A stretch of DNA of 23,432 nt from positions 1 through 23,432 of the IMG/VR virus record IMGVR_UViG_3300042449_001381, one strand, 5' to 3'. This document shows, one piece after another, positions 7,175-23,432 of the stretch. Made by a program: the position numbers and the translations under genes. The stretch's first letter is position 1; each line of letters starts with the position of its first letter. The DNA comes from a virus. The notes under the pieces are model-generated. The model saw only the letters and a program-made list of their open reading frames with translations. It made no database searches and was not told the DNA's origin.

Positions 7175-8022
7175 TAGAATTCCTCTATTACATCCATCAA
7201 ATTTTTAAGTTTCTTGGCCATGAAGTAAGGTATTAACTTAGATCGAGGGGCCGGCGTTGTATTATTATATGTATCGATAATCGAATTTTTAATATCACCT
7301 GGAATGTTACGGAGGTCAATAAGTGTCTGATTTCTTGAGAAACCAATACGTGCAGTCTCATCTTCATATTCACCGTAATTTGTGGACATGAAAGTTGTCA
7401 AACGTGCTTCAGTCATAACCTTCTGACGCACTTCACGTACAAAGGTATCACCTGGAGATAGAATATTTGGAATGCCATCACCACGGTCACCACCGATAAT
7501 TTTGGCTTTCAATTCTTCTAATGGATTCTTTGAGGTGATAAACTTCTTTTGTGTTGGGTTATATTGTTTTACATTCTTGTACATTTGCAGTTGTAGGAAA
7601 TCTCCGTCACTGGAAAGAATCAAAACTTTTTCTGTTTGTGAATAGATTGGTGTGAGTGTACCAATAATATCATCGGCTTCTGCACCATCAACATCGATAA
7701 CACGATATGGAAAATTATCTTTAAGTTCTTGTTTGATTTTACCAAGGATATCAAAAATCAAATGCCAATCTAAATCGGATTTTTCACGTGTCTTTTTACG
7801 ACCAGCTTTGTAGAAAGGAAAGAATTCTTTACGCCAATACTTCTTATTGTCACAGCATAACACAACTTCGCCATATTCGTGACGGAACTGTTTAATGTGA
7901 CCACGTAGGATATTCAATGCTAGATGGCGAATCAAATCTTCTTCCAGTTTCACATTTTTCTGTCCAGAGATTTGGACCATAAGACCAGCCAGTAAAACCT
8001 GGTTTAAGTCAACAAGAATCAT
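7174..8022 (-). CDS. rnh: RNase H, T4 rnh-type 5' nuclease (FEN-like)
   Basis: T4 RNase H is a 5'-3' exonuclease of the flap-endonuclease family that removes RNA primers and some DNA from lagging-strand fragments. This 282-aa protein (T4: 305 aa) shows the acidic residues in order: Asp 5 (ILVDLNQ), Asp 58 (CCDNKKYWR), the cluster Glu 115, Asp 117, Asp 118 (GAEADDIIGT), Asp 139 and 141 (SSDGDFLQL), and Asp 179/182 (GGDRGDGIPN). The basic bridge region (KEFFPFYKAGRKK) is also present. ATG 8022 has AAGG 7 bases upstream. It has its own sigma-70 promoter inside the end of the preceding gene and overlaps the next gene by one base. With the primase at 15465-16481 it completes part of a T4-type lagging-strand apparatus. 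Confidence 0.93.
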   Translation of the reverse strand: MILVDLNQVLLAGLMVQISGQKNVKLEEDLIRHLALNILRGHIKQFRHEYGEVVLCCDNKKYWRKEFFPFYKAGRKKTREKSDLDWHLIFDILGKIKQELKDNFPYRVIDVDGAEADDIIGTLTPIYSQTEKVLILSSDGDFLQLQMYKNVKQYNPTQKKFITSKNPLEELKAKIIGGDRGDGIPNILSPGDTFVREVRQKVMTEARLTTFMSTNYGEYEDETARIGFSRNQTLIDLRNIPGDIKNSIIDTYNNTTPAPRSKLIPYFMAKKLKNLMDVIEEF

Positions 8023-8030
8023 AATATACC

Positions 8031-9125
8031 TTATTTAATTACTCTGAGTAGAATTATATCAGAATTGATTCGACCTGTCAAGGCCTGTTCAACCGCATTT
8101 ATATCGGTTAATGTTTTCCGTAGTGCAATCTTACCTGCTTTCAATGTGGCAGGTAAAACAACCTCAGGTTTTCTAATGGTTTTTTGTACAGACGTTTCCT
8201 CATTGTAATTAATGAGTGTTGTACCTTTAACGTTCAATCCACCGGCATCCGTTGCATTGTAACATCCGAGTTTTCTTGTTTTGGTATTAAAAACCCACAA
8301 CTGTGAAGAACCGATGATATCAGCAGGATTAATAGAAGCGACTTTATATTCATTGTCTTCCTTTTTGAATTGAAGTTTTTCTATGATTTTATCCACAGGC
8401 TTAGCCTTTTTCTTCCTAGGCGCACGTGTGACTTTTGAGGTATGTGCAATCTTAGTACAATCGTCAATAATTGTTTTTAGTAGATTAGCATACTCTTTCA
8501 ATTCAGTTTTCTTGAGATACGAATAACCATCAACAAGGTCTTTATCTTTACCTTTCAATGCTTCTTCTATTTCGGTTAATTTGTTGCTAAAAACTGGAAT
8601 AATAAATCGTGTATGAGCACCTTTAATATCTAAAGTTTTCATCAACTCATAAGGTTTAAATGTTGTTTTGAAATTCCTATTAACAAAACATTCATCGATT
8701 GAACCTTCTATTTCACCGATATACTCACGTGTTTTTTCGGCAATACGTTCTTGTATAGAGACTACTTTAGTTTGTGTGACTTCTTCGACTTTGACAACAG
8801 GTGCTTTGTTGTTTTTGAGTTTTTGAATGAACGAATTGATCCATTCTTCATTTTTCTCGGATAATGGTGCACCTCTGAGTTTCATTCGGCAAACAAAACC
8901 AAGATTCTGAAATTCAGCTTCTGGATTCTTTTCGACAAGTTCAATATCTTTTTTAGATGCACCGATTTCTTTTAAGTAAGAGAGTGTGAATTTTTTACTC
9001 TCTTTAGAATCAGAGTGGTAATTATACCAGTTTAATGCGGAAGATATTGATGTTTGTCCGGTTTTCCATGATGGTTCTCCACCAGACAATGCTTTTTCAA
9101 AATCTTTAACGGATGCGTGTCTCAT
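8031..9125 (-). CDS. Conserved phage protein of unknown function (364 aa)
   Basis: A basic, soluble protein. Residues 1-100 hold a compact helical part (KTGQTSISSALNWYNYH); about 105-260 are lysine-rich with likely coiled helices; the end (SSQLWVFNTKTRKLGCYN, then LINYNEETS) appears to be a beta-rich domain. I recognise the general pattern from hypothetical proteins of aquatic T4-like phages near rnh but cannot name a function. The basic linker APRKKKAKP at 235-243 could touch nucleic acid. ATG 9125 overlaps the upstream gene by 20 bases; the ribosome site is poor (AAAGG about 13 bases away). The 3' end of the gene contains the RNase H promoter. Confidence 0.72.
   Translation of the reverse strand: MRHASVKDFEKALSGGEPSWKTGQTSISSALNWYNYHSDSKESKKFTLSYLKEIGASKKDIELVEKNPEAEFQNLGFVCRMKLRGAPLSEKNEEWINSFIQKLKNNKAPVVKVEEVTQTKVVSIQERIAEKTREYIGEIEGSIDECFVNRNFKTTFKPYELMKTLDIKGAHTRFIIPVFSNKLTEIEEALKGKDKDLVDGYSYLKKTELKEYANLLKTIIDDCTKIAHTSKVTRAPRKKKAKPVDKIIEKLQFKKEDNEYKVASINPADIIGSSQLWVFNTKTRKLGCYNATDAGGLNVKGTTLINYNEETSVQKTIRKPEVVLPATLKAGKIALRKTLTDINAVEQALTGRINSDIILLRVIK
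8053..8081 (-). promoter_or_regulatory. Perfect-consensus sigma-70 promoter inside a coding end, for rnh
   Basis: On the minus strand TTGACA (8081-8076), a 17-base spacer and TATAAT (8058-8053): all twelve bases and the spacing are ideal. It lies within the last codons of the 364-aa gene, about 31 bases before the RNase H start at 8022. It should be a strong host-polymerase promoter for rnh and the DUF6433-like gene. Confidence 0.88.
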
Positions 9126-9387
9126 GCGTATTTACAGCCTTTACAGAATCGAGACGGAAAGAACGCCAACCGTTATTTTCCATATCCCAAACCGAGAGTG
9201 TATTCGGATTTTCTGCTTTTGTCAAGCCCTCTGTTAACAACTGTTGTCCTTCAACAACAGGTTGTGCAGGTAGATATTCGGGTAGAAGTGTGCATTTAAG
9301 TTCACGTTCTGTGCCATCAATTTTAGTGAACACAACTGTGGATACACTATTTGTCAAAATCTCTTTCAATTCATACTTATCAAACAT
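9106..9387 (-). CDS. DUF2693-like small beta protein (93 aa)
   Basis: The protein has strands VVFTKIDGTERELKCTLLPEYLP and a C-terminal VWDMENNGWRSFRLDSVKAV. This 'FTK.DGT..R..CTL ... WD...GWRSFR' layout is that of small phage proteins related to DUF2693, an SH3-like or WYL-like fold. These may be small regulators, but no member known to me has a proven role. ATG 9387 has AAGGA 7 bases before it and overlaps the preceding gene by 8 bases. The gene overlaps the next one by 20 bases. Confidence 0.65.
   Translation of the reverse strand: MFDKYELKEILTNSVSTVVFTKIDGTERELKCTLLPEYLPAQPVVEGQQLLTEGLTKAENPNTLSVWDMENNGWRSFRLDSVKAVNTHETRIR
9197..9225 (-). promoter_or_regulatory. Weak candidate sigma-70 promoter
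   Basis: TTGACA (9225-9220), a 17-base spacer and TACACT (9202-9197) on the minus strand, inside the DUF2693-like gene and about 70 bases before the 364-aa gene. The -35 is perfect but the -10 matches only 4 of 6, so it may be chance. Confidence 0.25.
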
Positions 9388-9754
9388 TTTTCATTTCCTT
9401 TTCATAATCTTTAATATATTCAAAAGTTTCATCTTCCATTCCAGCCATAATATTATCCATAACTTCTTTCGATGTTGTGGTAAATTTTGTAACGACACCA
9501 TAAAAACCATCTTCCGCCATTCGGCCAATATAATCTATTGGTGAGGTTAGAATTGCTTGAAATCGTTCTGGCATTTTTGGTGGATCATCTTGTACAATGA
9601 TAATATCAAAGTAGTCTCCTAATTCTGTTCCACCAACTTTTTCACCTGGATTTTTAAATTGAAATTGTGAGAATTCCAAATCACCATCCTCGTTGCGATA
9701 GAAATTAATTCCATCAAAATCATTATTCTTTAATTGTTGCAAGAATTCTTTCAT
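9380..9754 (-). CDS. Hypothetical acidic protein (124 aa)
   Basis: A strongly acidic soluble protein beginning MKEFLQQLKNNDFDGINFYRNEDGDLEF. It contains a strand pair YFDIIIVQDD and a helical, very acidic C-terminus (MAGMEDETFEYIKDYEKEMKNV). The acidity could reflect DNA mimicry or protein binding, but nothing specific supports this. AAGG lies 6 bases before ATG 9754. The first 32 bases overlap the end of the GIY-YIG gene in another frame, an unusually long overlap for this window. Confidence 0.68.
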   Translation of the reverse strand: MKEFLQQLKNNDFDGINFYRNEDGDLEFSQFQFKNPGEKVGGTELGDYFDIIIVQDDPPKMPERFQAILTSPIDYIGRMAEDGFYGVVTKFTTTSKEVMDNIMAGMEDETFEYIKDYEKEMKNV

Positions 9755-10163
9755 TGAATGCCTTAATGTGTGACTTTCTCACTTTGACCATAATCCATGC
9801 ATTGTAGTAATCATTAGATTCTAATACACTACGGTCAAACTGTTCTTTAGCTTCTAGATAACCACATTCACCTTTTGATTTACATAGGTGTAAGATTTCT
9901 CTTTTGAAATTATCCTTCCCATGTAGTATAACATCATTTTGCAACTCGGCACTAGATCCGTAGTAAGTTTGCCAGTCCGAAGGTGTTTTGTACCTTTTCT
10001 TTTTACCTTTGAGAACTTTCGTTTTCATAGAATAAAAAAACTTTTTACCAATATATTTTCTACCTGTAGCTAAATGGGTGATAATATAGACAAAGCCATA
10101 ATTATCACCCACATCATTTTCTGTAAAATCTTTATTGTCGTATTGCCAATTTATTTGTCCCAT
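9723..10163 (-). CDS. SegE-like GIY-YIG nuclease domain protein
   Basis: GIY-YIG enzymes cut DNA; in T4 the Seg proteins are free-standing homing endonucleases. In this 146-aa protein GFVYIIT (23-29) replaces the GIY element and KYIGKK (36-41) supplies YIG. A basic stretch follows (TKVLKGKKKRYKTPSDWQTYYGS), then Glu 104 (GYLEAKEQF), the expected catalytic glutamate, and Asn 121 (DYYNAW). The layout matches the SegE-like GIY-YIG family. The protein is little more than the catalytic domain, with no separate DNA-binding module. It overlaps both neighbours, so it is integrated into the operon rather than a fresh insertion. It could be a domesticated nuclease. Confidence 0.78.
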   Translation of the reverse strand: MGQINWQYDNKDFTENDVGDNYGFVYIITHLATGRKYIGKKFFYSMKTKVLKGKKKRYKTPSDWQTYYGSSAELQNDVILHGKDNFKREILHLCKSKGECGYLEAKEQFDRSVLESNDYYNAWIMVKVRKSHIKAFNERILATIKE

Positions 10164-10339
10164 TCCTCATTCTCATCAAAGTCCTCATCTTCTATATATT
10201 CTTCATTTAGGACTTCGATTCTTTCACCACAGAACGGGCAAAAGGTGGGAGATTCATCTGACACATAATCTTCTTCAAACGCAATTTCACAGGTTGATTC
10301 ACAATTTTCACACTCTGCGGTTGTAATTTTTTCAGACAT
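10151..10339 (-). CDS. Small zinc-ribbon-like protein (62 aa)
   Basis: Cys 10 and Cys 13 (CENC) and Cys 34 and Cys 37 (CPFCG) form a four-cysteine zinc-ribbon pattern; Cys 17 is extra. The C-terminal third is almost entirely acidic (NEEYIEDEDFDENEEWDK). AAGGA lies 6 bases before ATG 10339. It sits between NrdB and the GIY-YIG gene. Small zinc ribbons of this type may modulate polymerases or other proteins, but no specific role can be read. Confidence 0.75.
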   Translation of the reverse strand: MSEKITTAECENCESTCEIAFEEDYVSDESPTFCPFCGERIEVLNEEYIEDEDFDENEEWDK

Positions 10340-10356
10340 TTTTTATCCTTCTTATT

Positions 10357-11340
10357 TTATGCCCAAACGTCACCCCAGTTTCCTGATGTGGCACCTTTAG
10401 CATAGTCTGTTGCACGATTTTCAAAAAAGTTAGTATGAGTTGGTGCATTAATCATCTCTTCAACCCATGGCAATGGATTGCGTTTGACTTTAAAAATACC
10501 CTTCATACCTAAACCAATCAATCTGCGGTCAGCAATATATCGGATGTATTTTTTCAAATCATCACTTGTCAGACCTTCCATCTCACCCATACCAAACGAC
10601 AAATCAATGAACTTATCTTCTAGTTCAACCATGCGTTCTGCAATAGTGTAAATGGATGATTTTAATTCATCATTCCAGATTTCCTGATTCTCGCTTATGT
10701 ATGTTTTGAATAATTTCATCATGTTCTCGGCGTGCATTGTCTCATCGACAATAGACCAAGTAACAATCTGTCCCATACCCTTCATCTTACCTGTGCGTGG
10801 GAAATTCAATAACATAACAAAAGAGGAGAATAACTGCATACCTTCAGTAAATGCACTGAACACGGCGATGTGGCGTGCAGTATTCTCTTTTGTTCCGTTT
10901 TTGCTTGCAATATCTAAAACATAATCGTGCTTGTCTTTCATTTCTTGGTAGTCCAAGAATTGATTGTATGTTGTTTCAGGCAAGCCTAGTGTTTCAATCA
11001 AATGTGAGTAAGCGGCAATATGAAGTGCTTCACGTGCGGCAAAACCCATCAGCATCATTCGTACTTCTGGTTGTGGAAAATAAGGCAAGTAATTACGAAC
11101 ATAACCACCGGCAACATCAATGTCACCTTGAGTGAAGAATCGGAAAATGTTGGTAAGAAATTGTTTTTCTTGATCCGTTAATTTCTTTTTCCAATCTTTC
11201 ACATCCTCAGCCATTGGTACTTCAGTGTGAAGCCAATGGCTTTGTTCATGTTTCAACCAAGCATCATAAGCCCAAGGATAATTGAAAGGTTTGAAATTGT
11301 TTCTTTCATCCGTTAGTCTAGAAGATGTCTTTTTAATCAT
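10357..11340 (-). CDS. nrdB: Ribonucleotide reductase class I, small (beta) subunit
   Basis: The protein houses the diiron-tyrosyl radical that starts ribonucleotide reduction by NrdA. Ligands are visible: an Asp at 73 or 75 (QGDIDVAGG), Glu 104 and His 107 (REALHIAAY), Glu 166 (FTEGMQLF), Glu 200 and His 203 (VDETMHAE). The radical tyrosine is Tyr 111, four residues after His 107, as in E. coli NrdB, so this is a tyrosyl-radical enzyme and not a radical-lacking variant. The C-terminal tail (GATSGNWGDVWA) should dock onto NrdA. Length is 327 aa (E. coli 376). ATG 11340 overlaps the thioredoxin stop (ATGA). NrdA lies upstream, separated by three genes. Confidence 0.95.
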   Translation of the reverse strand: MIKKTSSRLTDERNNFKPFNYPWAYDAWLKHEQSHWLHTEVPMAEDVKDWKKKLTDQEKQFLTNIFRFFTQGDIDVAGGYVRNYLPYFPQPEVRMMLMGFAAREALHIAAYSHLIETLGLPETTYNQFLDYQEMKDKHDYVLDIASKNGTKENTARHIAVFSAFTEGMQLFSSFVMLLNFPRTGKMKGMGQIVTWSIVDETMHAENMMKLFKTYISENQEIWNDELKSSIYTIAERMVELEDKFIDLSFGMGEMEGLTSDDLKKYIRYIADRRLIGLGMKGIFKVKRNPLPWVEEMINAPTHTNFFENRATDYAKGATSGNWGDVWA

Positions 11341-11582
11341 GCTTCAATCCAATTCTTCAAAATTTCTTTTGTTACTAAACCCGTCATTCTTTTAACTTCA
11401 ATATTTTCTTCAACAATAACCAATGTAGGAACTGATCGGATTCCATAGTCCATTGCCAGTTCTGTATCAACGTCAATATCAAAGACTTCAATTGGTAAGC
11501 CTGTATCAATTTCTTCTAATTGTTTAGCCAAGTTTTTGCAGGGTTGGCACCAAGATGCCGTAAATCTTAAAATTTTTCTCAT
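11337..11582 (-). CDS. Thioredoxin-like protein (81 aa)
   Basis: A short thioredoxin fold with the redox site WCQPC (Cys 12, Cys 15) near the N-terminus and the cis-proline loop SVPT (Pro 52). WCxPC is thioredoxin-like rather than glutaredoxin-like. At 81 aa it is shorter than host thioredoxin (about 108) and similar in size to T4 NrdC (87). Its place directly before nrdB, with ATGA overlaps on both sides, points to reduction of the C-terminal cysteines of NrdA during dNTP synthesis. There is no signal peptide, so it is cytoplasmic. Confidence 0.9.
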   Translation of the reverse strand: MRKILRFTASWCQPCKNLAKQLEEIDTGLPIEVFDIDVDTELAMDYGIRSVPTLVIVEENIEVKRMTGLVTKEILKNWIEA

Positions 11583-12022
11583 TTGTTACACCAAGAAGTT
11601 TTAGCTTCACCGTAATATTCACGTGCGAAACCATTGTTAATTAACATCATTCTGAGACTTTTTCCGTCTAACAGAACATCACCTAAAACACGACCACCGT
11701 ATTTGTCCCAATCCATTAAGACAATCTGTCTTTTTTGTGCCGCATTGATTTGTGCTTTCGTGAATGCCGTTGCGGCTTGGCCACGTGCATCTTCTTCTGG
11801 ACATCCAGCACGAAAACCTTTTTCTGGTGTGTCAACACCAAAAACACGAACACTTAATTCCTTTTTAAGTGGATCAGGTAACCAGTTAGCCTGAAACGCT
11901 ACTGTATCACCATCCACAACTCTTGTCAATACCGCATCATAAGTTACACCAGTTTTTTGTTTGCCTTGTGCAAATGCTACGATGGTTGCCATCGCCATTA
12001 TTGTTATAATTAATTTTTTCAT
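11579..12022 (-). CDS. Secreted thermonuclease (staphylococcal nuclease-like)
   Basis: The 147-aa protein starts with a signal peptide: MKK, then a hydrophobic core IITIMAMATIVAF with a likely cleavage after AFA (about residue 18). The mature part is an SNase domain with Asp 37 and 39 (RVVDGDTV), Arg 59, Asp 64 and Glu 67 (VRVFGVDTPE) and Arg 111 (DKYGGRVLGDV), the full set of Ca2+ and catalytic residues. It should therefore act in the periplasm or outside, cutting DNA and RNA. Two cysteines (74, 145) could form a disulfide after export. It lies between the 212-aa gene and thioredoxin with ATGA overlaps, inside the nrd operon. The ribosome site is AAGAAA-like. Confidence 0.88.
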   Translation of the reverse strand: MKKLIITIMAMATIVAFAQGKQKTGVTYDAVLTRVVDGDTVAFQANWLPDPLKKELSVRVFGVDTPEKGFRAGCPEEDARGQAATAFTKAQINAAQKRQIVLMDWDKYGGRVLGDVLLDGKSLRMMLINNGFAREYYGEAKTSWCNK

Positions 12023-12657
12023 TTTTCTTTTCTTTCATACATTACGGTATCAGTGTCACCTAAAGCCCATTTTGCTTCAGTTTCTACGGACCACCTTTTG
12101 GTTGATACTTTAAAATCCGGATACTTTAATTCACGAGGATTACTCGATGGCTCAAACACAATCATTCTATTATTAGGTTGACATGCAAATTGACCATTAT
12201 CACACTTGATGAAGTTATAAGATTTATGGTCTTCAACATCCTCAGAGAGACCAGTATCTATAACGTTAAAATCTGGGTGTGCCGAATCTACTGTGAACAT
12301 ATATTCACCATACATCCAATCACCACTTTTCAATTTGAATTTACATTTCATCGATTGCAATTGTGCCTTCTTCAGTACAGTAATATCGTAACTTAGGCAG
12401 TCCCATAACTGCAAATAATCAAGTGGAAGTGGCTCACCTTCAATAGGTTTCCAACAGTATGCACTGATGGGTAACTTATCATACAATGCACCATATTGAT
12501 TCAAATAAGATTCAATTCGAAATGCTTGTCCTCTTAATGATTTAATACTAACCCACCAACAAGGTTCCAACTCATCATAACCTTTTTCGAAGTCATAAAG
12601 AAATTCTTTGCGAACAAAACATTTTACTGTTGGTAGGTTTGCAATTATATGTGACAT
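12019..12657 (-). CDS. Conserved hypothetical protein (212 aa)
   Basis: A soluble protein rich in aromatic residues. It starts MSHIIANLPTVKCFVRKEFLYD and includes CWWVSIKSLRGQAFRIE, an SYDITVLKK segment, and a late FIKCDNGQFACQPNNRMIVFEPS. The even spread of strands suggests a beta-rich fold. It has seven cysteines but no clear metal motif or catalytic signature. ATG 12657 follows the NrdA stop directly (TAAATG), so it is coexpressed with ribonucleotide reductase. I have the impression that similar proteins occur beside nrd genes in T4-like aquatic phages, but no function is known to me. Confidence 0.72.
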   Translation of the reverse strand: MSHIIANLPTVKCFVRKEFLYDFEKGYDELEPCWWVSIKSLRGQAFRIESYLNQYGALYDKLPISAYCWKPIEGEPLPLDYLQLWDCLSYDITVLKKAQLQSMKCKFKLKSGDWMYGEYMFTVDSAHPDFNVIDTGLSEDVEDHKSYNFIKCDNGQFACQPNNRMIVFEPSSNPRELKYPDFKVSTKRWSVETEAKWALGDTDTVMYERKEK

Positions 12658-14457
12658 TTATCCCTCACAGGCAATACAATCATTACCTTCAGCGAGGGCT
12701 GTCATATCAAGTTCTTTAATTACATCACGTTCAATTCTCTTGGAAACCTTATCAGCCTTTGCCAATTTTTCTGAACGGCAGTAATATAATGTTTTCACAC
12801 CTTTCTTCCATGCTAAGAAGTGAATAGCATGTATATATTTGAGATGAGAATCGGGTCGGAAGAATACGTTTAGTGATTGTGCTTGGTCAATATAAACTTG
12901 ACGATCTGCCGCATGTTCAATCACCCAACGTTGGTCAATTTCCATAGAAGTCTTAAACACGGCTTTTGTGTCCTCGTCCATCCAATCAAGGTGTTGTACA
13001 GAACCATCATTAGCAATAATTGAAGACCAAATATCAGCATATTTTCCAGAATCCATTCCATCTTCTAGTGACAGATGTTTTCTGATTACTCTATCGAGCC
13101 AACGATTCTTATTTAAAAATGAGCCAGATAAAGTGTCCTGACGGTAAGCGTTAGCACGATAAGGCTCAATGCTAGGGCTAGTATTTCCCATAATGATAGA
13201 CGAAGAAGCATTTGGAGCAATAGCCATAAGATGACTGAAACGCTGGCCACTACCCGTAGCATCGGGTGCTTCACCGCGTTCAGTACCGAGTTGAAGATTT
13301 GCTTCATCTAGTTTACCTCTGATATGTTTGAAAATCTTATTGTTTAATACTTTTGCCATTACACCTTCAAATGCTACATTGTTCTTTTGGAGAAAAGCAT
13401 GAAAGCCGAGAGCGCCAACACCGATGCTCCGTTCACGGCTAGCACTATATCTTGCACGTGATATGCTATCAGGAGCATTATCAATGAAATATTGAAGGAC
13501 GTTATCGAGCATCTCTGCAATGTCCCGAAGAAATAATTCGTTATCTTTCCAATCATCATAATACTCCAAATTTACGGACGATAAGCAACATACAGCAGTT
13601 CGTTCTTCATTAGTAGGAAGAATAATCTCCGAGCAAAGATTTGATTGGTGTACTTTCAGACCTTTATCTTTTAAGAATTGTGGAAGTCCACGATTGCTTG
13701 TATCAATGTAATGAATGTATGGTTCACCTGTATGCATACGGAGTTCGAGAATTTGTTGCCACAGATGTTTAGCAGACACAACTTCACGCACTTCACCTGA
13801 ATGTGGATCTTTTAGTTCCCAAGCATCATTCGCTTCTGGATCGACCATACATTTTTCAATGATTCGCATGAAATCATCGGTGATATTGATACCATGATGC
13901 AGATTCAAACAACGGACGTTTGGATCACCCGTTGGTTTACGCATCTCTAAAAAGGGAATAAGGTCAGGATGACTAATATCAAGGTAGGCAGCATAAGAGC
14001 CACGGCGAGTGCGTCCTTGACGATACGCAAGACTAGAGGCATCGTAAATCTTGAGGTGAGGCATAACGCCAGTACTCTTATCATCCGCAGAGCGTATCCC
14101 AAAGCCGATGCCAACACCGCCGCCAAACATAGACAGCCAATTAGTTTCAGAAAGATTATCAACTAGACCCTCCGCAGTATCTTCAACATAGTTAAGAAAG
14201 CATGAAATAGGTAGCCCACGCTTAGAACGGCCGTAGCTAAGAATAGGAGTGCTATAGCTAAGCCAATGATTAGAGGCGTAATTATACAAACGCTGAGAAT
14301 GCTCCGGATTAGAGCCAAAAGACGTTGATACATATGCAAACCTCTGTTGTGGTGATGTTTCATCATCACGCATGTATGATTCTTTTAATCGTTTAATACC
14401 TAATTCATCAAATAGTTTATCTTTTTCCAAGTCTATTGTGATACCCATATATTCCAT
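12658..14457 (-). CDS. nrdA: Ribonucleotide reductase class I, large (alpha) subunit, lacking an ATP cone
   Basis: The catalytic subunit reduces ribonucleotides to deoxyribonucleotides with NrdB. The frame opens at a TTG (14505), but AAGGA 5 bases before ATG 14457 (MEYMGITIDL) decides the start, giving 599 aa. Active-site residues: Cys 86 (GLPISCFLN) and Cys 290 (AVCCLSSVNL) as the reductant pair, Asn 273, Cys 275 and Glu 277 (SNLCSEI) for radical chemistry, and a C-terminal CIAC pair (594, 597) for re-reduction by thioredoxin. E. coli NrdA has 761 aa; the missing part is mainly the N-terminal ATP-cone that senses dATP. The enzyme is thus predicted to escape dATP shut-off. It lies 11 bases after the pyrophosphohydrolase gene. 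Confidence 0.95.
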   Translation of the reverse strand: MEYMGITIDLEKDKLFDELGIKRLKESYMRDDETSPQQRFAYVSTSFGSNPEHSQRLYNYASNHWLSYSTPILSYGRSKRGLPISCFLNYVEDTAEGLVDNLSETNWLSMFGGGVGIGFGIRSADDKSTGVMPHLKIYDASSLAYRQGRTRRGSYAAYLDISHPDLIPFLEMRKPTGDPNVRCLNLHHGINITDDFMRIIEKCMVDPEANDAWELKDPHSGEVREVVSAKHLWQQILELRMHTGEPYIHYIDTSNRGLPQFLKDKGLKVHQSNLCSEIILPTNEERTAVCCLSSVNLEYYDDWKDNELFLRDIAEMLDNVLQYFIDNAPDSISRARYSASRERSIGVGALGFHAFLQKNNVAFEGVMAKVLNNKIFKHIRGKLDEANLQLGTERGEAPDATGSGQRFSHLMAIAPNASSSIIMGNTSPSIEPYRANAYRQDTLSGSFLNKNRWLDRVIRKHLSLEDGMDSGKYADIWSSIIANDGSVQHLDWMDEDTKAVFKTSMEIDQRWVIEHAADRQVYIDQAQSLNVFFRPDSHLKYIHAIHFLAWKKGVKTLYYCRSEKLAKADKVSKRIERDVIKELDMTALAEGNDCIACEG

Positions 14458-14468
14458 ATTTTTCCTTA

Positions 14469-14816
14469 TTATTTTACAAAGTTTTCTAGTTGCGGTGGTT
14501 TCCAACCTTCGGGTTTCATCACTTTACCATCTTCACGTTTTTTAACTTTACCTGTTACTGGATCAATTTTATCTAGATTCGATCTAGCAACTTCATTCCA
14601 TGCACCAGAAACATCATAGCCTTTCATGTAGCAATAACCTAGAATAACCCAAATCATATCCATACATGCATCGAGGGTTTCTACTTCATCTTTTGTTAAT
14701 AGCGCACCAACATATTCATCATATTCTTCTCGAATAAGTTTATCATATAATTTAACATTATCTAATGTCTTTTCTTGGTCACATGCTTCAATAAACTTAA
14801 CTACATCATTGTACAT
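14469..14816 (-). CDS. MazG-like / phosphoribosyl-ATP pyrophosphohydrolase-fold NTP-PPase
   Basis: The 115-aa all-alpha protein carries the acidic motif of the MazG/HisE superfamily: Glu 30, Glu 31, Glu 34 (LIREEYDEY) followed by Asp 49 and Asp 53 (LDACMDMIWV). The ending NLDKIDPVTGKVKKREDGKV, then KPEGWKPP, is typical of the single-domain phage and bacterial members. Such enzymes hydrolyse (d)NTPs to monophosphates, either cleansing the pool or providing dUMP-type precursors; MazG proteins of cyanophages have also been linked to nucleotide signalling. Its place between thyX and nrdA supports a role in dNTP metabolism. ATG 14816 overlaps the thyX end by 11 bases. Confidence 0.85.
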   Translation of the reverse strand: MYNDVVKFIEACDQEKTLDNVKLYDKLIREEYDEYVGALLTKDEVETLDACMDMIWVILGYCYMKGYDVSGAWNEVARSNLDKIDPVTGKVKKREDGKVMKPEGWKPPQLENFVK

Positions 14817-15468
14817 TAATATATTCCTTAATCATTGGAAAAATTGGTTCGATTGCATCAGCACAAGCCAAAGCAATTTCACGGTGTTCTTTTTGTGTTC
14901 CGTTACCGGATCGGAGCTGTATATAGTGTACCCAAGAACGCAGAGTTCCGTTCATGTACATACGTGAACATGTCATACCTTCAGGAAGAACGGCACGTGC
15001 TTGTTCTTTGGCGATTCCATGTTCCAAGGCCCATTGATATGTGTCTTGACACATTTTTTGAATATTATTCTGCATGTTTTCCCACTGATATGCCAGTCTT
15101 CTAGAATCATCATCTCTTTTTAGTTCAACACTATTTTGACGATTCTTCATATCTTGCAAACGGGTTTCTCTAATTTCAAAACCAAGTTGTGATGCATCAG
15201 CATAACGTTGGCTAAACTCTTGGAAAGAAAAAGAACGGTGACGTAGAATCTGTCGTGCAATGTCACGTGTGGTTTCGATCTCCATGCATACGGAGACCAT
15301 CTCCAATGGCGACCAATGCTGGTGCTTAATCAGATAGCGAACTAACTTCTCGGCAGTTTCTGAATTGTTTTGATTTGTTGGATTCGATACACGTGCGGCG
15401 AAAGCCACCTGCTCAAGTAAGTTCATTCCATCGGGGCTTTGTGAATAATTAATTAATTTTACGTTCAT
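14806..15468 (-). CDS. thyX: FAD-dependent thymidylate synthase
   Basis: ThyX makes dTMP from dUMP with methylene-tetrahydrofolate and FAD/NADPH. The signature RHRxxSxxExSxR is complete at residues 76-88 (RHRSFSFQEFSQR). N-terminal AAFAARVSNP-like (FAARVSNP) and C-terminal RSWVHYIQLRSGNGTQKEHR segments, the latter with dUMP-binding residues, are also present. At 220 aa it has normal length. The frame opens at ATG 15480, but ATG 15468 (MNVKLINYSQ) has GGAAG upstream and an ATGA overlap with the primase stop, so I chose that. T4 itself uses ThyA; ThyX is typical of many aquatic phages. It stands first in the dNTP block. Confidence 0.95.
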   Translation of the reverse strand: MNVKLINYSQSPDGMNLLEQVAFAARVSNPTNQNNSETAEKLVRYLIKHQHWSPLEMVSVCMEIETTRDIARQILRHRSFSFQEFSQRYADASQLGFEIRETRLQDMKNRQNSVELKRDDDSRRLAYQWENMQNNIQKMCQDTYQWALEHGIAKEQARAVLPEGMTCSRMYMNGTLRSWVHYIQLRSGNGTQKEHREIALACADAIEPIFPMIKEYINVQ

Positions 15469-16481
15469 ACTTTCTTCCATTGAATAAATTCCATCTTTGC
15501 TCTCAAATTAACGAATGTGTTCTTATCAATAATGTCAACAATTTCATCAGTTGTAAATCCAGACAATATCATATCATTAATATCTTTCTCTTGCATCATC
15601 TCAGGCCAAATACAAATTGCAAAATGATTCTCGATTGCTTTGTCCATCAATTTACAAATATCTTTATTTCTAGGTTCATTATCAAATACTAGAACCAACT
15701 TATCCCTTTTTATATAACTTACAGCATTGGCTAAATTAGCATCGGCTGTAGCAACAGCATTTGGTAGGAAAAGGGAATCGATTGGACCTTCAGTTACATA
15801 TACTTTTTCATCTTTATTCACTCTATCCAGTCCGAAGATTTTTATACTTTCTTCTGCAATTTTAATTGTAATATAACGAATCTTTGAATCACGCAACGCA
15901 CGACCTTGAACCGCTAACAGAGAACCATCAATGTCGAAAAAAGGAATAATAAGTCTAGGATCATCTTCTTTCAAGTCTTTATCGTGGTCTGGAAGCAACT
16001 CATCGATAAATGCTTTGAAGTCATTTGCATAGTATAGTGTATTATATGTAGCCTCTGGAATTTTTCGTCCTATGCAATACTGTGCCGCATAGTGATCCAT
16101 CGGTAGATCAATAATCTTTGGTAGATTTATATCCTTTGGTTTCTTTTTGAACACTGGTGCTTCAAACTTCAGTTCAGTTTTTTCAATTTTTGTTGGAGTT
16201 TTGTGTGTATCTGCATAACGTTCAAGTGCATATTCCTTGACTAGATTTGCATCAAGTAAATTGATGAAGTTATACATTGTATGACCAATACCACAATTCT
16301 GACACTTATAGAAGTAATCATTCTTTTTGCGGTAAACATAACCACGTGCTTTGTGTAGGTGCTTCTGTGAATCACCACAAAACGGGCACCGAAAATTAAA
16401 CAGGTCTTCTTTCTTTTGGGAAAACCTATTTAATTTTGGAGAGAGTAGTTTGAGGTATTTTCGATCAATAAAAACGGACAT
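15465..16481 (-). CDS. DNA primase, T4 gp61-type (zinc finger + TOPRIM)
   Basis: The enzyme makes RNA primers for lagging-strand synthesis, normally with the gp41-type helicase. The N-terminus has a zinc finger: Cys 32 and Cys 35 (CPFCGDS), Cys 60 and Cys 63 (CQNCG). The C-terminal half has a TOPRIM domain: Glu 231 (YVTEGPIDSL), Asp 267 (VFDNEP) and Asp 274, then a DIND motif at 300-303. Length (338 aa) equals that of T4 gp61 (342) closely. ATG 16481 has only a weak ribosome site, but a promoter with an extended -10 lies 30 bases upstream, so it is the first gene of the replication and nucleotide transcript. No helicase gene is in the window. Confidence 0.92.
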   Translation of the reverse strand: MSVFIDRKYLKLLSPKLNRFSQKKEDLFNFRCPFCGDSQKHLHKARGYVYRKKNDYFYKCQNCGIGHTMYNFINLLDANLVKEYALERYADTHKTPTKIEKTELKFEAPVFKKKPKDINLPKIIDLPMDHYAAQYCIGRKIPEATYNTLYYANDFKAFIDELLPDHDKDLKEDDPRLIIPFFDIDGSLLAVQGRALRDSKIRYITIKIAEESIKIFGLDRVNKDEKVYVTEGPIDSLFLPNAVATADANLANAVSYIKRDKLVLVFDNEPRNKDICKLMDKAIENHFAICIWPEMMQEKDINDMILSGFTTDEIVDIIDKNTFVNLRAKMEFIQWKKV

Positions 16482-16510
16482 AACAAGGCAACATAATGTA
16501 AAGTTCTGTT

Positions 16511-16539
16511 ATTCTAGCACATTTTTATTTGGAGTGCAA
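16511..16539 (-). promoter_or_regulatory. Extended -10 sigma-70 promoter for the primase-nrd operon
   Basis: On the minus strand TTGCAC (16539-16534), a 17-base spacer and TAGAAT (16516-16511). The -35 is weak (3/6) but the -10 is 5/6 and is preceded by TGC, an extended -10 element. It lies in a 73-base gap, about 30 bases before the primase start, where a new transcript is expected. Confidence 0.6.
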
Positions 16540-16553
16540 TACCATTTTTGGTA
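16540..16553 (-). repeat. Short inverted repeat at gene end (5-bp stem, A4 loop)
   Basis: TACCA / TGGTA with a loop of four A in the minus-strand transcript, two bases after the stop codon at 16555 and directly before the primase promoter. It lacks a U-tract. It mirrors the arrangement at 6533-6548. Confidence 0.3.
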
Positions 16554-16554
16554 A

Positions 16555-16860
16555 TTAACTTAACAGAGAAAGGATTTTATCGGAATGGCCAGCAATCCAT
16601 CCACCCACGCCTATGCCACCGGCAATCATGTATGTCCACTTCTCTTTCAATTTCTTTAATTCGGAAATATCCTTGGCTAAAGCGGCATGTTGCTCACAAG
16701 AAGCACCATACATCTTTTCAAGTTCACCCTTGAGGTCGTCACGGGTTCTATCGAGACAATTGTGCATGTCTTTCACATCCACTTTAAGAACATCAATTTT
16801 TTCATTGATGTTTTCTACCTTGGTCTCGACAATGCCAAGTCTTTCCGTTGTAGTCGCCAT
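16555..16860 (-). CDS. Coiled-coil protein with C-terminal membrane anchor (XhlA-like)
   Basis: The 101-aa protein starts MATTTERLGIVETKVENINE and continues with heptad-like helices to about residue 70, then a Gly-rich hydrophobic segment YMIAGGIGVGGWIAG (75-90) and a short tail. This coiled-coil plus one C-terminal membrane segment is the layout of XhlA-type, haemolysin-like or holin-associated proteins. It is the last gene of the lysis block and may help position or regulate the holin. The frame is open further upstream (to 16902), but ATG 16860 is one base after the previous stop and GAAATAAA precedes it, so I use 16860. Assignment is by shape only. Confidence 0.7.
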   Translation of the reverse strand: MATTTERLGIVETKVENINEKIDVLKVDVKDMHNCLDRTRDDLKGELEKMYGASCEQHAALAKDISELKKLKEKWTYMIAGGIGVGGWIAGHSDKILSLLS

Positions 16861-16861
16861 T

Positions 16862-17071
16862 TTATTTCTTTTCTGACTTTTCTGGAACCTTGGTACCTTC
16901 AAGTTTCTTGTGAACTTTGATAGTCTTGCATTCTTGTTGTGGCTTACCTGCTTTATCTAGAACAGGTTTTCCATCCTTGGTCATTTTATCGATGCAAACT
17001 TTTTCAGTTTCAGCACCAAAAGAAAGTGTTGTGACCAATGTAAGTGTAAGTAACGCTATGAACTTTTTCAT
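16862..17071 (-). CDS. Small secreted protein with signal peptide (69 aa)
   Basis: MKKFIALLTLTLVTTLSFGA is a clear Sec signal peptide, with cleavage likely after SFGA (residue about 20). The mature part is about 49 residues, very lysine-rich, with two cysteines (26 and 48) that could pair in the periplasm, and a repeat-like KDGKPVLDKAGKPQQ. TAGGAG lies 6 bases before ATG 17071. A periplasmic basic peptide next to lysis genes might affect the envelope or inhibit another phage, but no family is recognised. Confidence 0.72.
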   Translation of the reverse strand: MKKFIALLTLTLVTTLSFGAETEKVCIDKMTKDGKPVLDKAGKPQQECKTIKVHKKLEGTKVPEKSEKK

Positions 17072-19451: not shown

Positions 19452-19634
19452 TTACATCTTTGGTGATTTACGTGTAAGTGTGGTCATAAGAACTACACGT
19501 TTTTTCTTTTTCAGATTAACACCTGGTTCTCCACCCTTTTCACCTGTGCCTGCAATAGCACCTGTACTTACAGCATTACCTGGTCCCGTGGAAACTGCAC
19601 CACCATCTTCTCTTAATTTTTTGAACGATTTCAT
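19452..19634 (-). CDS. Small basic protein with Gly/Ala-rich repeat (60 aa)
   Basis: MKSFKKLREDGG is followed by a low-complexity segment with two copies of AVSTG (GAVSTGPGNAVSTGAIAGTG) and a basic end (KKKKRVVLMTTLTRKSPKM). Similar short proteins with an 'MK.F......AV..G' start and a basic tail occur in T4-like aquatic phages, often near head genes; the role is unknown. The ATGA overlap with the preceding gene supports expression. No membrane segment is seen. Confidence 0.6.
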   Translation of the reverse strand: MKSFKKLREDGGAVSTGPGNAVSTGAIAGTGEKGGEPGVNLKKKKRVVLMTTLTRKSPKM

Positions 19635-20017
19635 ATTTCTTTTAGTATGTTGGCTACATCCATGTCAATTGGTATATTTGAAGATAATATGTCTTTTCCA
19701 TTTATACCTTTGACGAAATCTGGCATATAATTTAAATATGTCAGAAAGGTTTTAAGTACATCATAGTCAACCTCATCAATTCTGAAAAACAAAATTCGGG
19801 TTGCGGGTTCTACTCCAAAAACATTATACAGAAGTATTAGATGATTTAAAACCAATCTTTCTTTGAGTGATTTTGTAATCTTATAGCGCCTGAACAATCT
19901 TTTCAAATATTTAGTGCGTTTTAAGTCACCTTCGAATTCACTCATAACATAATGCGGTGAAGTATAAGCCTTCATAGCATACATCAAAAAGTTTTCTTCA
20001 TTCAAATCATCGAACAT
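19631..20017 (-). CDS. Conserved phage protein, DUF7207-like (128 aa)
   Basis: The protein starts MFDDLNEENFLMYAMKAYTS and contains SEFEGDLKRTKYLKRLFRRY, then LVLNHLILLYNVFGVEPATR. I recognise this pattern from T4-like phage hypotheticals (DUF7207 from memory). It is helical and basic in the centre. The frame opens at TTG 20047, which lies inside the hairpin at 20028-20045; ATG 20017 is the better start although no Shine-Dalgarno is visible. Its role is unknown; in related phages it lies in the late region. Confidence 0.72.
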   Translation of the reverse strand: MFDDLNEENFLMYAMKAYTSPHYVMSEFEGDLKRTKYLKRLFRRYKITKSLKERLVLNHLILLYNVFGVEPATRILFFRIDEVDYDVLKTFLTYLNYMPDFVKGINGKDILSSNIPIDMDVANILKEI

Positions 20018-20027
20018 AATGATAAAT

Positions 20028-20045
20028 GGGTGACTTGCGCCACCC
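20028..20045 (-). terminator. Stable hairpin with GNRA tetraloop after a structural gene
   Basis: In the minus-strand RNA, GGGUGGC pairs with GUCACCC around a GCAA loop (7-bp stem including one G-U pair, GNRA loop). It begins 5 bases after the stop at 20051 and is followed by AUUUAUC, not a full U-tract. It may be a weak terminator, a processing or stability element, or may shield the next gene's start. The stem is read directly; its role is inferred. Confidence 0.55.
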
Positions 20046-20050
20046 AAATA

Positions 20051-20631: not shown

Positions 20632-20639
20632 TATTTATT
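20632..20639 (-). promoter_or_regulatory. Possible T4-type late promoter box
   Basis: The minus strand reads AATAAATA (7 of 8 matches to TATAAATA), 32 bases before ATG 20599 and overlapping the stop of the 732-aa gene. Late promoters in T4-like phages sit at this distance. The match is suggestive only. Confidence 0.35.
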
Positions 20640-22833
20640 GTTTCTGTGAATTAGGTCTGGTCTTAAGAACAGGCTCAATCTCTACTGTATCACGGGGCTG
20701 ACCCGTCATGGTTGTTCCGCCTTGCAAAACAACTTTGGCTGTAGGTGTTTTACCACCTTTGTCAGTTTTTTCCCAATCATACATGCTTTCATTTTTACCC
20801 TTCTTTTTATAGATGGATTTAATGATACGTGCAGATTTCATATTCTTTTTGCGGTGCTCTGATTCCATTGCTTTAACAGAATTTGTTGCTGATAGGGGTG
20901 AGTCTTCGATACCACCAATGCCTTCTTGTACAACATCTTCAGAGACAGACTTCCAGCCACCACCTTTGGATTTATACCATTTTGACGCCCAACCATTTGC
21001 ATATGCTGATGGGTAAACATCAAACTTAGAACGAGCCATTGATTTTGCTCTTGACCAAAGTGCAGGATTTGTTGGACTATTTTTTTCGTCCATTTGTTCT
21101 GCTTCTTCATTTTTAGGTCTGCAATCTGGAACCATCTTACCACCCTTCATTTTCATGCCGACTTGTTTGTGTGTATCCCAACATGCTTCATCAACTTCTT
21201 CTTCACTGAGTTTACCTTTGCCGTAATTTGATACATTTATTGGCTTACCACCCTTGCCTGCACGGTCTGCAACTGGATCATGTCTGCGTTTAGTTGCGAC
21301 TGCGGCCGCTCGTTCACTCTTACTGAGTTCAGCACGTTTTTCTTTTGACATACATTTTGGTTTTGGTTCACCAGGTTCTCTGGCACAAGGACCTGCTACT
21401 TCACCTTTTGAGTTGATTCTTTTCCAATCACCTTCAGGATCAGTTTTGCTAAACCATTTACGTAAATCTTCACGTGTGAGGTGGCTATCAAGTTCTTGGT
21501 TGTCATCTTGTTTCTTCAATTCTGCCAAAGGCTTTTCAGCCTGTTTACGAATTGCTTTTGTGACACCACCGATAGCTTTAATGCTTTTGAGTGTACCTTT
21601 TGGTGTTACACCACGTGATGGGCCTGTGGAAACTTTATCAACATAAGATTTCAATGTAGAAGTTTTGAGTTCTTGTAGGGGTTCACCTTCAACTTCCACG
21701 GAATCTCCGACATAACGTCCACTACCAGCAGATTTGTAATATGCTCCAGGTGAACTCATGTCAACCTTTTTCTCTGGTTCAGACTTCACTGGCGGATACA
21801 TTTTCTTATATGCTTTTTTGATACCCTTATCTAATTTAGCCTGTTTAGCAGGAGATGCTGTAGGAAATTTCTTATGACCAGCAGACATGTATGAATGTAA
21901 CGTACCTTTTGAAAGTTCATCTAAAACTTCTTCGTCCAGTTCTTTTGTAGATTTCAAATAATCTAAAGAAGTTGTGATATAATCTTCTGCTTTTGTTATT
22001 TTGGATTGGACCCACTCTGGAAGATTTTCATCATCTTCTAGCATATTTTTAATATCTTCTGCATTTCTACAAATGGTTTGTAATAGAGTTTTAGCCATTG
22101 AACCTTCATAATCATATTCACCAGCATCTTTACTTTCTTTTAATTTTCCAGTAATAGAATCATAGTGTTCCATAGTTAACGGAACATCGTGGCGCATATC
22201 AATTAAACGTTCAACAACTTTGTGTAGTTCTACATCTGTCTTGACATCTTCACGGATGAATTCTAGTACACGAATAAGCAAAGGAATGTCCATGCTAACT
22301 GTATCTTTTACATCCGCTTCTTCTTTGACAGATTTCTTTTCTTCGTTCCAATCATCACCACGTTCGCCCATGCCTGATATTTCTTTCACGTGTCTATTTT
22401 TAAACAATCTAAATTCTGAAGAACGTGAATATGATTTCTTTTGGTTTCCATCCATCGATAGTGGATTTAAACCTTTAGCCTTGATGAAAGACATTAGAAG
22501 ACCAGTACCTGCTTCATCCAATTCTTCAACTTCTTCAGTTTTCAACTGGTCATTCATGTGAGAAATTTTATAGTTCTTAAATGCATTTGAACGTGCATAT
22601 TTTGAACGTGAAGCAAAGTCCATCTGTTCTGGATTATAACCAAGTGAACGAATATACTTAAACAACAATGGATCAGATTCGTCTAACTGTTCGGCTTCCT
22701 CTTTGACTGGTTGTGCATATTTTGCAGACCAAGGCTCCATTGGATCCTCATATGGTGAATCACCAAGTTTGCCCATAACAGACTCTTTCTTGGCCTTCAA
22801 CATATCCTTGATTAATTTACCAGCTTTGCTCAT
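20635..22833 (-). CDS. Modular linker-rich phage protein (732 aa) with duplicated domains
   Basis: The protein is a chain of small modules separated by acidic linkers such as EEAEQLDE (45-52), EEVEELDE (100-107), KELDEEVLDE (297-306), SEEEVDE (543-549) and EEAEQMDE (576-583). Modules: two copies of a 'GxNP..M.......YSRS..F....' unit (54-96, 108-151); a helical unit (176-240, IPLLIRVLEFIREDVKTD); two 'TL.SY' units (307-345, 389-430); a TREDLRKWFSKTDPEGDWKR unit with two cysteines (450-520); a CWDTHKQVGMKMKGGKMVPD unit (551-571); and NPALWSRAKSMARSKFDVYP ... WASKWYKSKGGGW (589-629), which recalls DUF5872. Such modules recur, shuffled, in proteins of marine T4-like phages. AAGGA lies 7 bases before ATG 22833. 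It may be a virion-internal or scaffold protein. Confidence 0.72.
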   Translation of the reverse strand: MSKAGKLIKDMLKAKKESVMGKLGDSPYEDPMEPWSAKYAQPVKEEAEQLDESDPLLFKYIRSLGYNPEQMDFASRSKYARSNAFKNYKISHMNDQLKTEEVEELDEAGTGLLMSFIKAKGLNPLSMDGNQKKSYSRSSEFRLFKNRHVKEISGMGERGDDWNEEKKSVKEEADVKDTVSMDIPLLIRVLEFIREDVKTDVELHKVVERLIDMRHDVPLTMEHYDSITGKLKESKDAGEYDYEGSMAKTLLQTICRNAEDIKNMLEDDENLPEWVQSKITKAEDYITTSLDYLKSTKELDEEVLDELSKGTLHSYMSAGHKKFPTASPAKQAKLDKGIKKAYKKMYPPVKSEPEKKVDMSSPGAYYKSAGSGRYVGDSVEVEGEPLQELKTSTLKSYVDKVSTGPSRGVTPKGTLKSIKAIGGVTKAIRKQAEKPLAELKKQDDNQELDSHLTREDLRKWFSKTDPEGDWKRINSKGEVAGPCAREPGEPKPKCMSKEKRAELSKSERAAAVATKRRHDPVADRAGKGGKPINVSNYGKGKLSEEEVDEACWDTHKQVGMKMKGGKMVPDCRPKNEEAEQMDEKNSPTNPALWSRAKSMARSKFDVYPSAYANGWASKWYKSKGGGWKSVSEDVVQEGIGGIEDSPLSATNSVKAMESEHRKKNMKSARIIKSIYKKKGKNESMYDWEKTDKGGKTPTAKVVLQGGTTMTGQPRDTVEIEPVLKTRPNSQKQ

Positions 22834-22836
22834 TGC

Positions 22837-23432
22837 TTAGTCCTTTTTAGCGGCCTTTGTGGCAGTTGCATACATCACTTCTTTGGCTCTTTCACCGTAA
22901 CGTGATTTGAAACCAGCAAGAGATTTTTTCATACCTTTAACGATACGTTCTTTTTCAGCAGTCTCACCTTTAGTTAGTGTGCGTTCGTCAACTTGTTCAA
23001 CTTCTTCTTCGTTAACATTAAGTTTAACTTTAGCTTTTAAGAATGGATTAGCTGACTTGCCAGCAACTCTACCTGTTAAGGTGTCTGTTGTTGTGACGCT
23101 TGGATCAATTTCTTCTTTTTTAGTCATCTTCTTCTCAAGGTCACCCAAGTCTTTATCTTTAGGACCTTTGACAATTGCAAAAGGATCAGCCATAGAATCA
23201 CGATGTGTCTTTGCGGCATTACCATAACGGTGGCCTAAAACTCTTGTACCGGTTGAAGTAGGAATTTTAACACTTGTGTCTGCTTCTTCAACTTGTTCTT
23301 CATTGACTTTCTTTTCGCCACGGAGAAGTTTGAAGTCGTGAGCATCAATTTTGTTGTTCTTATTTTTATCAATCTTGTGTTGATTGCCCTTGAGTGCTTC
23401 CATCTTAGCCTTATAATCGGCTTCGTTGATAC
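22837..23432 (-). CDS. Linker-rich protein with EF-hand-like loop, 5' end outside the window
   Basis: The frame is open to the right edge, continuing upstream of ATG 23403 (…INEADYKAK), so the N-terminus is missing. A 12-residue EF-hand-like loop (DKNKNNKIDAHD) could bind Ca2+. Acidic linkers (NEEQVEEADTS, NEEEVEQVDE) are like those in the next gene, and the C-terminal ERIVKGMKKSLAGFKSRYG ... KEVMYATATKAAKKD is a module seen often in aquatic T4-like phages. It ends three bases before the modular 732-aa gene, so the two are cotranscribed. A structural or scaffolding role is likely, but it is inferred. Confidence 0.7.
   Translation of the reverse strand, partial: INEADYKAKMEALKGNQHKIDKNKNNKIDAHDFKLLRGEKKVNEEQVEEADTSVKIPTSTGTRVLGHRYGNAAKTHRDSMADPFAIVKGPKDKDLGDLEKKMTKKEEIDPSVTTTDTLTGRVAGKSANPFLKAKVKLNVNEEEVEQVDERTLTKGETAEKERIVKGMKKSLAGFKSRYGERAKEVMYATATKAAKKD

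Follow-up and report, generated by a model that had tools for sequence, protein, structure and literature searches.

Acidic linkers ending in phi-x-E in a modular viral protein, a probable head-core polyprotein cut by a gp21-type protease

Introduction

Why are the modules of a 732-amino-acid (732-aa) viral protein joined by acidic linkers that end like cleavage sites of the T4 prohead protease, gp21? The protein is encoded in a linear IMG/VR virus fragment of 23,432 bases (hereafter, the window). The plus strand across positions 20635-22833 contains many stops, and the 732-aa frame is read from 22833 to 20635:

20635..22833, minus strand: 732-aa modular protein P0001, proposed head-core polyprotein; open frame from ATG to stop; homologues in ~22 viral contigs

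The original prediction for this gene was a polyprotein that is cut at the linkers into several small proteins, either internal to the head or injected. Internal head proteins of T4-like phages are the first to meet the defences of the host, and to our knowledge few of them are known outside T4 and giant phages. A Pfam search of the 732-aa protein gave zero domains at E ≤ 1, and all of its PHROG matches are of unknown function. An enzymatic function was considered and dropped, as a Pfam domain is absent at this threshold.

Modules and Junctions of the 732-aa Protein

Leader, junctions and modules are arranged as follows; carets mark predicted cut points, and phi stands for L, I, V, M or F. The six junctions that had been named at the outset (LDE^S, LDE^A, LDE^L, VDE^A, MDE^K and VQE^G) lie exactly where they had been placed, while two junctions with the full L-x-E motif, LQE^L and LAE^L, had been overlooked.

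22678..22833, minus strand: residues 1-52, N-terminal leader, ends in EEAEQLDE; predicted helix 4-20
22675..22686, minus strand: junction 1, LDE^S, residues 50-53; relatives have LNE^D or LTE^D
22513..22677, minus strand: residues 53-107, small helical module, the first of a similar pair; ordered at ~54-95
22510..22521, minus strand: junction 2, LDE^A, residues 105-108; VNE^A, IDE^A or LTE^A in relatives; Glu in 20/20 contexts
21916..22512, minus strand: residues 108-306, second helical module of the pair (110-149), then a helical region (178-295) with further phi-x-E sites
21913..21924, minus strand: junction 3, LDE^L, residues 304-307; a module of the DELSKxTLxSY type begins here
21520..21915, minus strand: residues 307-438, basic region (pI 9.9, charge +14) containing the LQE^L junction
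21667..21678, minus strand: junction 4, LQE^L, residues 386-389; from the motif scan, full L-x-E match
21517..21528, minus strand: junction 5, LAE^L, residues 436-439; full L-x-E match, Glu in 14/14 related contexts
21187..21519, minus strand: residues 439-549, module called DUF6321 in a cyanophage record (Sf-CH8 annotation); phrog_727, phrog_12753
21184..21195, minus strand: junction 6, VDE^A, residues 547-550; from the motif scan and relatives
21085..21186, minus strand: residues 550-583, CW module, a beta hairpin plus an acidic linker; phrog_38880
21082..21093, minus strand: junction 7, MDE^K, residues 581-584; Glu in 55/55 contexts, linker disordered in the model
20923..21084, minus strand: residues 584-637, PTNP...YPSAYANGW module; pLDDT 79-88, weak DUF5872 similarity
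20920..20931, minus strand: junction 8, VQE^G, residues 635-638; VKE^G, VNE^G or VSE^G in relatives
20638..20922, minus strand: residues 638-732, basic C-terminal module (charge +8)

With a mean pLDDT of 42.9, the AlphaFold2 whole-protein model has low confidence and served only for comparing order between modules and linkers. It orders residues 54-95, 110-149 and ~178-229, with pLDDT up to 83 in the first helical module and below 50 in the first linkers, including that at 96-109. With a deeper alignment of residues 438-630, the DUF6321, CW and PTNP modules are ordered, and the linker at 575-583 is disordered and ends at the MDE cut point. A PDB sequence search of the C-terminal modules for solved folds gave only a chance-level match to a ribosomal protein, and a Foldseek search with the 438-630 model gave nothing below E = 1. 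Among members of the PTNP module, 40 of 47 weakly match DUF5872 (best E 6e-4). A likeness to defensins was rejected, its matches being short and insignificant.

Over the whole protein, [LIVM]-x-E is mildly enriched (22 sites against 13.6 expected, p = 0.006), while the stricter [LI]-x-E-[AGS] is not significantly so (3 against 1.6). Because this enrichment is modest, and strict-motif counting in a single protein is weak, counts anchored on modules were used in its place, and the case rests on position and conservation. Sites of the phi-x-E type are depleted within the DUF6321 module (0 against 0.88 expected in 439-549) and the C-terminal module and are lacking inside the CW and PTNP modules. 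Several of them do lie inside the folded helical region at 178-298, which counts against a polyprotein cut at its joints. Pieces predicted from the junctions include basic ones (charges +14, +8, +5 and +3), which may contact DNA.

Conservation of the Junctions

Scanning viral contigs yielded 46 loci, ~22 of them long homologues of the 732-aa protein; further scans with other modules extended the set to 319 loci. Distinct junction contexts were counted across ~300 related contigs. The conserved first residues of each module were taken as an anchor, the sequence upstream was read, and the null was made by shuffling the ten upstream residues. Phi-x-E stands exactly at the junction in 20/20 contexts of the AGTG module (shuffle mean 1.5), 51/51 of the PTNP module (5.4) and 13/13 of the LKK..TRE module (0.9), and in 11/13 for GIGG (0.8), 38/60 for AAW (4.1) and 33/59 for CW (2.8); these contexts share descent and so are non-independent, and most anchors were picked after the window protein had been read, while the AAW module and the contexts with a T4-type N-terminal capsid-targeting sequence (CTS) lay outside it.

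The residues of the motif behave differently from one another. In the three cleanest sets (AGTG, PTNP and LKK..TRE), the last residue before the cut point (P1) is Glu in 89/89 and Asp in none, P3 is one of L, I, V and M with a single F, and P2 is freely D, N, E, T, Q, S, K, A or Y. The alignment of homologues, which had been suggested as a check, thus upholds the phi and the Glu of the proposed x-D-E ending, while its Asp is variable among the first eight of these residues. T4 gp21 cuts after L/I-x-E, and replacement of the Glu by Asp in the leader of IPIII blocks processing and not targeting (PMC9026906). Glu-only P1 with free P2, together with the blocking effect of Asp in T4, is therefore the pattern predicted by selection for cutting, unlike what selection for acidity alone would predict. 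As a description of gp21 sites, the rule of L/I-x-E before A or G was too strict at P1′, where T4 gp24 has S and gp21 has T. Junctions 1-5 have the L-x-E of gp21 substrates. A point against cutting, however, is that the P3 residues documented for T4 gp21 are L and I, whereas junctions 6, 7 and 8 have V or M. P3 at the junctions is never S or A, which sets them apart from the S/A-x-E sites of phiKZ and SPN3US.

Exchange of Modules between Leaders and Linkers

Between near-identical relatives, whole modules come and go. For example, in L003 (94% identical), a further module of ~70 residues stands at the first linker and precisely the CW module is absent, both changes lying at linkers. Isolated cyanophages have only single modules in common with the 732-aa protein. 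Furthermore, the AAW and CW modules also stand alone directly behind short N-termini like the CTS of T4. Six distinct CTS-like starts end in Glu right before AAW (e.g., MISFKKFLEE^SAAWKRKEG), and 9 of 10 starts do so before CW (e.g., MKSFKSFIAE^RCWPGY and MKNFKDFLNE^RCWPGH). The corresponding T4 starts are MKTYQEFIAE^A of ipII and ipIII, to which the leader MKSFKSFIAE is nearly identical, and MAKINELLRE^S of gp24. Elsewhere, the same two modules follow internal linkers with the cut point unchanged, as in EEETIDE^SAAWQRK and TIDE^SAAW for AAW, and EEEVDE^ACWDTHK and VDE^ACWD for CW. To judge from these sequences, N-terminal leaders and internal linkers are interchangeable before the modules.

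This exchange bears on an alternative in which the protein is a virion component that is never cut, and its acidic phi-x-E linkers serve for docking or helix capping and so hold the modules in the prohead core or shell. Such an element would account for the further conserved Glu at P5 and P8 and, at junctions of the LDE^LSK type, for phi and the next Leu, which could form one face of an amphipathic helix; in the T4 CTS, moreover, the targeting residues are separate from the cut residues (PMC9026906). Acidic docking should tolerate Asp at P1, however, where it does not occur in the three cleanest sets though it is common at P2, and an identical phi-x-E ending closes the CTS-like leaders at the same residue. 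We regard a never-cut protein as unlikely.

The start of the 732-aa protein itself, MSKAGKLIKDMLKAKKESVMGKL, differs from the T4 CTS (MKxFxxF-phi-x-E type) found in T4 internal head proteins, which speaks against targeting of the T4 type. Two neighbouring genes have sites of the same kind near their starts:

22837..23430, minus strand: second module protein upstream, its start cut off by the contig end; INE^A among the first residues of the fragment, VDE^R at 147-150
19452..19634, minus strand: 60-aa protein with the T4-CTS-like start MKSFKKLRE^D; MKTFKQFMLE^D in relatives

Complete homologues of the upstream partner have 342 and 602 aa with repeated linkers, and around residue 22 all relatives examined have INE^A or IAE^A. 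The partner also contains an EF-hand-like stretch at window positions 23329-23376 (minus strand), DKNKNNKIDAHDF, whose Pfam EF-hand score (E = 0.03) is below the cut-off. The 60-aa protein is, from its start, probably further head cargo. It and its relative at L056:8029-8217 are 60-62 aa long and have a Gly/Thr-rich body. Next to it, the window encodes a DUF7207 (PF23837) protein at 19631-20047, look-alikes of which adjoin module proteins in the cyanophages S-CREM2 and P-SSM4. Three large genes lie beside the module genes in L056, the 166-kb relative (12584-14497, 14494-15690 and 15692-17029); they encode a nucleotidyltransferase plus kinase-like protein and two unknowns, with the CTS-like starts MKKFLQKIEE, MKTFNIFLKE and MKPFRHWLNE.

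The Protease and Its Canonical Substrates in Relatives

A gp21-type protease, the search for which had also been suggested, is present as PF03420 in 9/9 tested relatives of at least 133 kb and missing only from shorter fragments. These gp21 proteins align with T4 gp21 and have its GEL-HP and GVSSRG active-site motifs intact. Being a fragment, the 23-kb window itself lacks gp21. In the 166-kb and 177-kb relatives, the clear EE-x-E-phi-x-E linkers are those of the two module proteins, and the canonical substrates are also recognizable: MLNE^A of gp23 aligns with FLTE^A of T4 gp23, and NLSE^A of gp22 is as far from the start as IAE^A of T4 gp22. In these genomes, acidic phi-x-E sites abound in one other protein, the gp22-like scaffold.

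A Module Protein in Cyanophage Virions

The proteome of CsCl-purified virions of cyanophage S-CREM2 contains ORF160, with 7 unique peptides and 13.1% coverage, as well as gp21 and gp22 (PMC10665884, Table 3). ORF160 has DUF6321, CW and YPSAYASG modules behind LSE^A, LEE^K and ISE^G, and its gene neighbourhood is that of the window gene: cytidylyltransferase, module protein, DUF7207-type protein, primase and nrdA. The virion evidence thus concerns a distant protein that shares modules with the 732-aa protein, rather than the 732-aa protein itself. Together with the exchange of modules between leaders and linkers, this detection is support that the original prediction did not have.

Several non-structural proteins of the S-CREM2 virion also have T4-like leaders: gp6 (MKDFDSFLEE), gp13 (MKDLHSFLTE), gp14 (VKRFDAFLTE), gp154 (MKNFSSFLTE) and gp12 (FASFMAE^A). 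A single leader pattern, set after these starts had been seen, matches 5/52 detected proteins against 2/163 other frames (p = 0.0099), a suggestive link between T4-like leaders and detection in virions. The genes of gp6, gp12, gp13 and gp14 are at L320:3837-5081, 7704-10313, 10310-10546 and 10579-12861, and that of gp154 is at L322:34608-35468; the products are, in this order, a SAM hydrolase, a protein annotated as Cas9-like, a small unknown, a kinase and a cytidylyltransferase.

A Proposed Route and Its Alternatives

Probably, the 732-aa protein is a head-core polyprotein, which a gp21-type protease cuts into small, mostly basic internal head proteins. In a T4-like phage, the uncut chain of small domains would become part of the prohead core, and the protease would cut after the Glu of the phi-x-E that ends each acidic, disordered linker, so that an internal linker would serve the module behind it as the cleavable N-terminal CTS serves a T4 internal protein. 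The products would be one fragment of ~23 kDa and several small ones of ~4-14 kDa, in part basic. Some of these products may stay in the capsid with the DNA, possibly binding it, and may be ejected into the host like T4 internal proteins. The helical region at 178-298 with its several sites may be either cut up or shielded by folding. The computed basis for a cut polyprotein is the placement of the motif, residue-specific conservation, the occurrence of the same modules behind leaders and behind linkers, and the protease in relatives; all of these favour the reading first proposed, from which we infer the targeting, the cuts and the fate of the fragments.

Cutting by gp21 would also be expected for a scaffold-type core protein whose fragments are degraded and lost, as for most of T4 gp22, gp67 and gp68, so that the modules would play no part in the mature virion. 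Cutting into many peptides is known for the T4 core proteins (PMC9958956), and both region 178-298 and the gp22 of the relatives are rich in phi-x-E sites. Such a fate is quite improbable, however, for modules that are strongly conserved and in some cases stand singly behind CTS-like leaders like the retained proteins of T4; the DUF6321, CW and PTNP modules contain no inner sites, and a module protein is present in mature S-CREM2 virions.

That the linkers are only recombination joints, with no role for a protease and in a protein that may be outside the virion, would fit the way in which modules are cleanly gained or lost at linkers when the window is compared with near-identical L003, but is very improbable, given that linker DNA is unconserved (22 spellings of EEVEQIDE; 140 DNA sequences for 35 linker peptides; synonymous differences among the copies within the window) and that constraint at P1 and P3 with a free P2 is a protein-level pattern. 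With so many spellings, the protein sequence is what is kept, and an origin of the linkers as DNA-level repeats or recombination sites was dropped.

Comparison with Known Systems

A head-core polyprotein of this kind would share features with several known systems. T4 IPI, IPII, IPIII and Alt are likewise small head cargo behind a phi-x-E leader removed by gp21, but T4 internal proteins have one cargo domain and one short leader, whereas here there are several modules per chain, internal sites and no T4-type CTS. T4 gp22, gp67 and gp68 are likewise single precursors with several phi-x-E sites for gp21; they are mostly destroyed and expelled, and they have no exchangeable conserved modules. In giant phages, phiKZ gp175 and SPN3US gp245 are related to gp21, cut after Glu and make multiple cuts per protein, but the motif of the propeptides is S/A-x-E, not phi-x-E (PMC9026906), and 13 of 14 cuts in SPN3US take off N-terminal propeptides (PMC10052503).

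Polyvalent proteins of phages and conjugative elements are also multidomain, are delivered into hosts and have been likened to polyproteins by their describers (PMC5512222). However, their domains are biochemically distinct, with enzymatic and DNA-processing functions and in some cases embedded peptidases, and no known domain was found in the 732-aa protein, whose Pfam and PHROG results (above) are unlike theirs. Another likeness is to cyanophage T4-GC119 and DUF6321 proteins, which have the DUF6321, CW, YPSAYASG and AAW modules in common with the present family, with phi-x-E or similar joints and a different module order; that of S-P4 is annotated as a structural protein. In the literature found, these proteins are only hypothetical or structural and processing is nowhere proposed, and no description of CTS or prohead-protease polyproteins in cyanophages was found in the open-access literature.

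Implications

The shared modules may, somewhat doubtfully, be parts of a plug-in cargo system in T4-like aquatic phages, in which they would be loaded either singly behind a CTS or in tandem as a polyprotein whose linkers are the internal cut sites; one gene would then give several proteins in equal number, first in the capsid and then in the host. T4-like leaders would mark S-CREM2 gp6, gp12, gp13, gp14 and gp154 as packaged cargo. If the head-core polyprotein reading is right, packaged proteins would be readable from the genomes of common aquatic phages by the rule of phi-x-E leaders and linkers, several families of “unknown function” would gain a role, and tailed phages would gain a polyprotein strategy.
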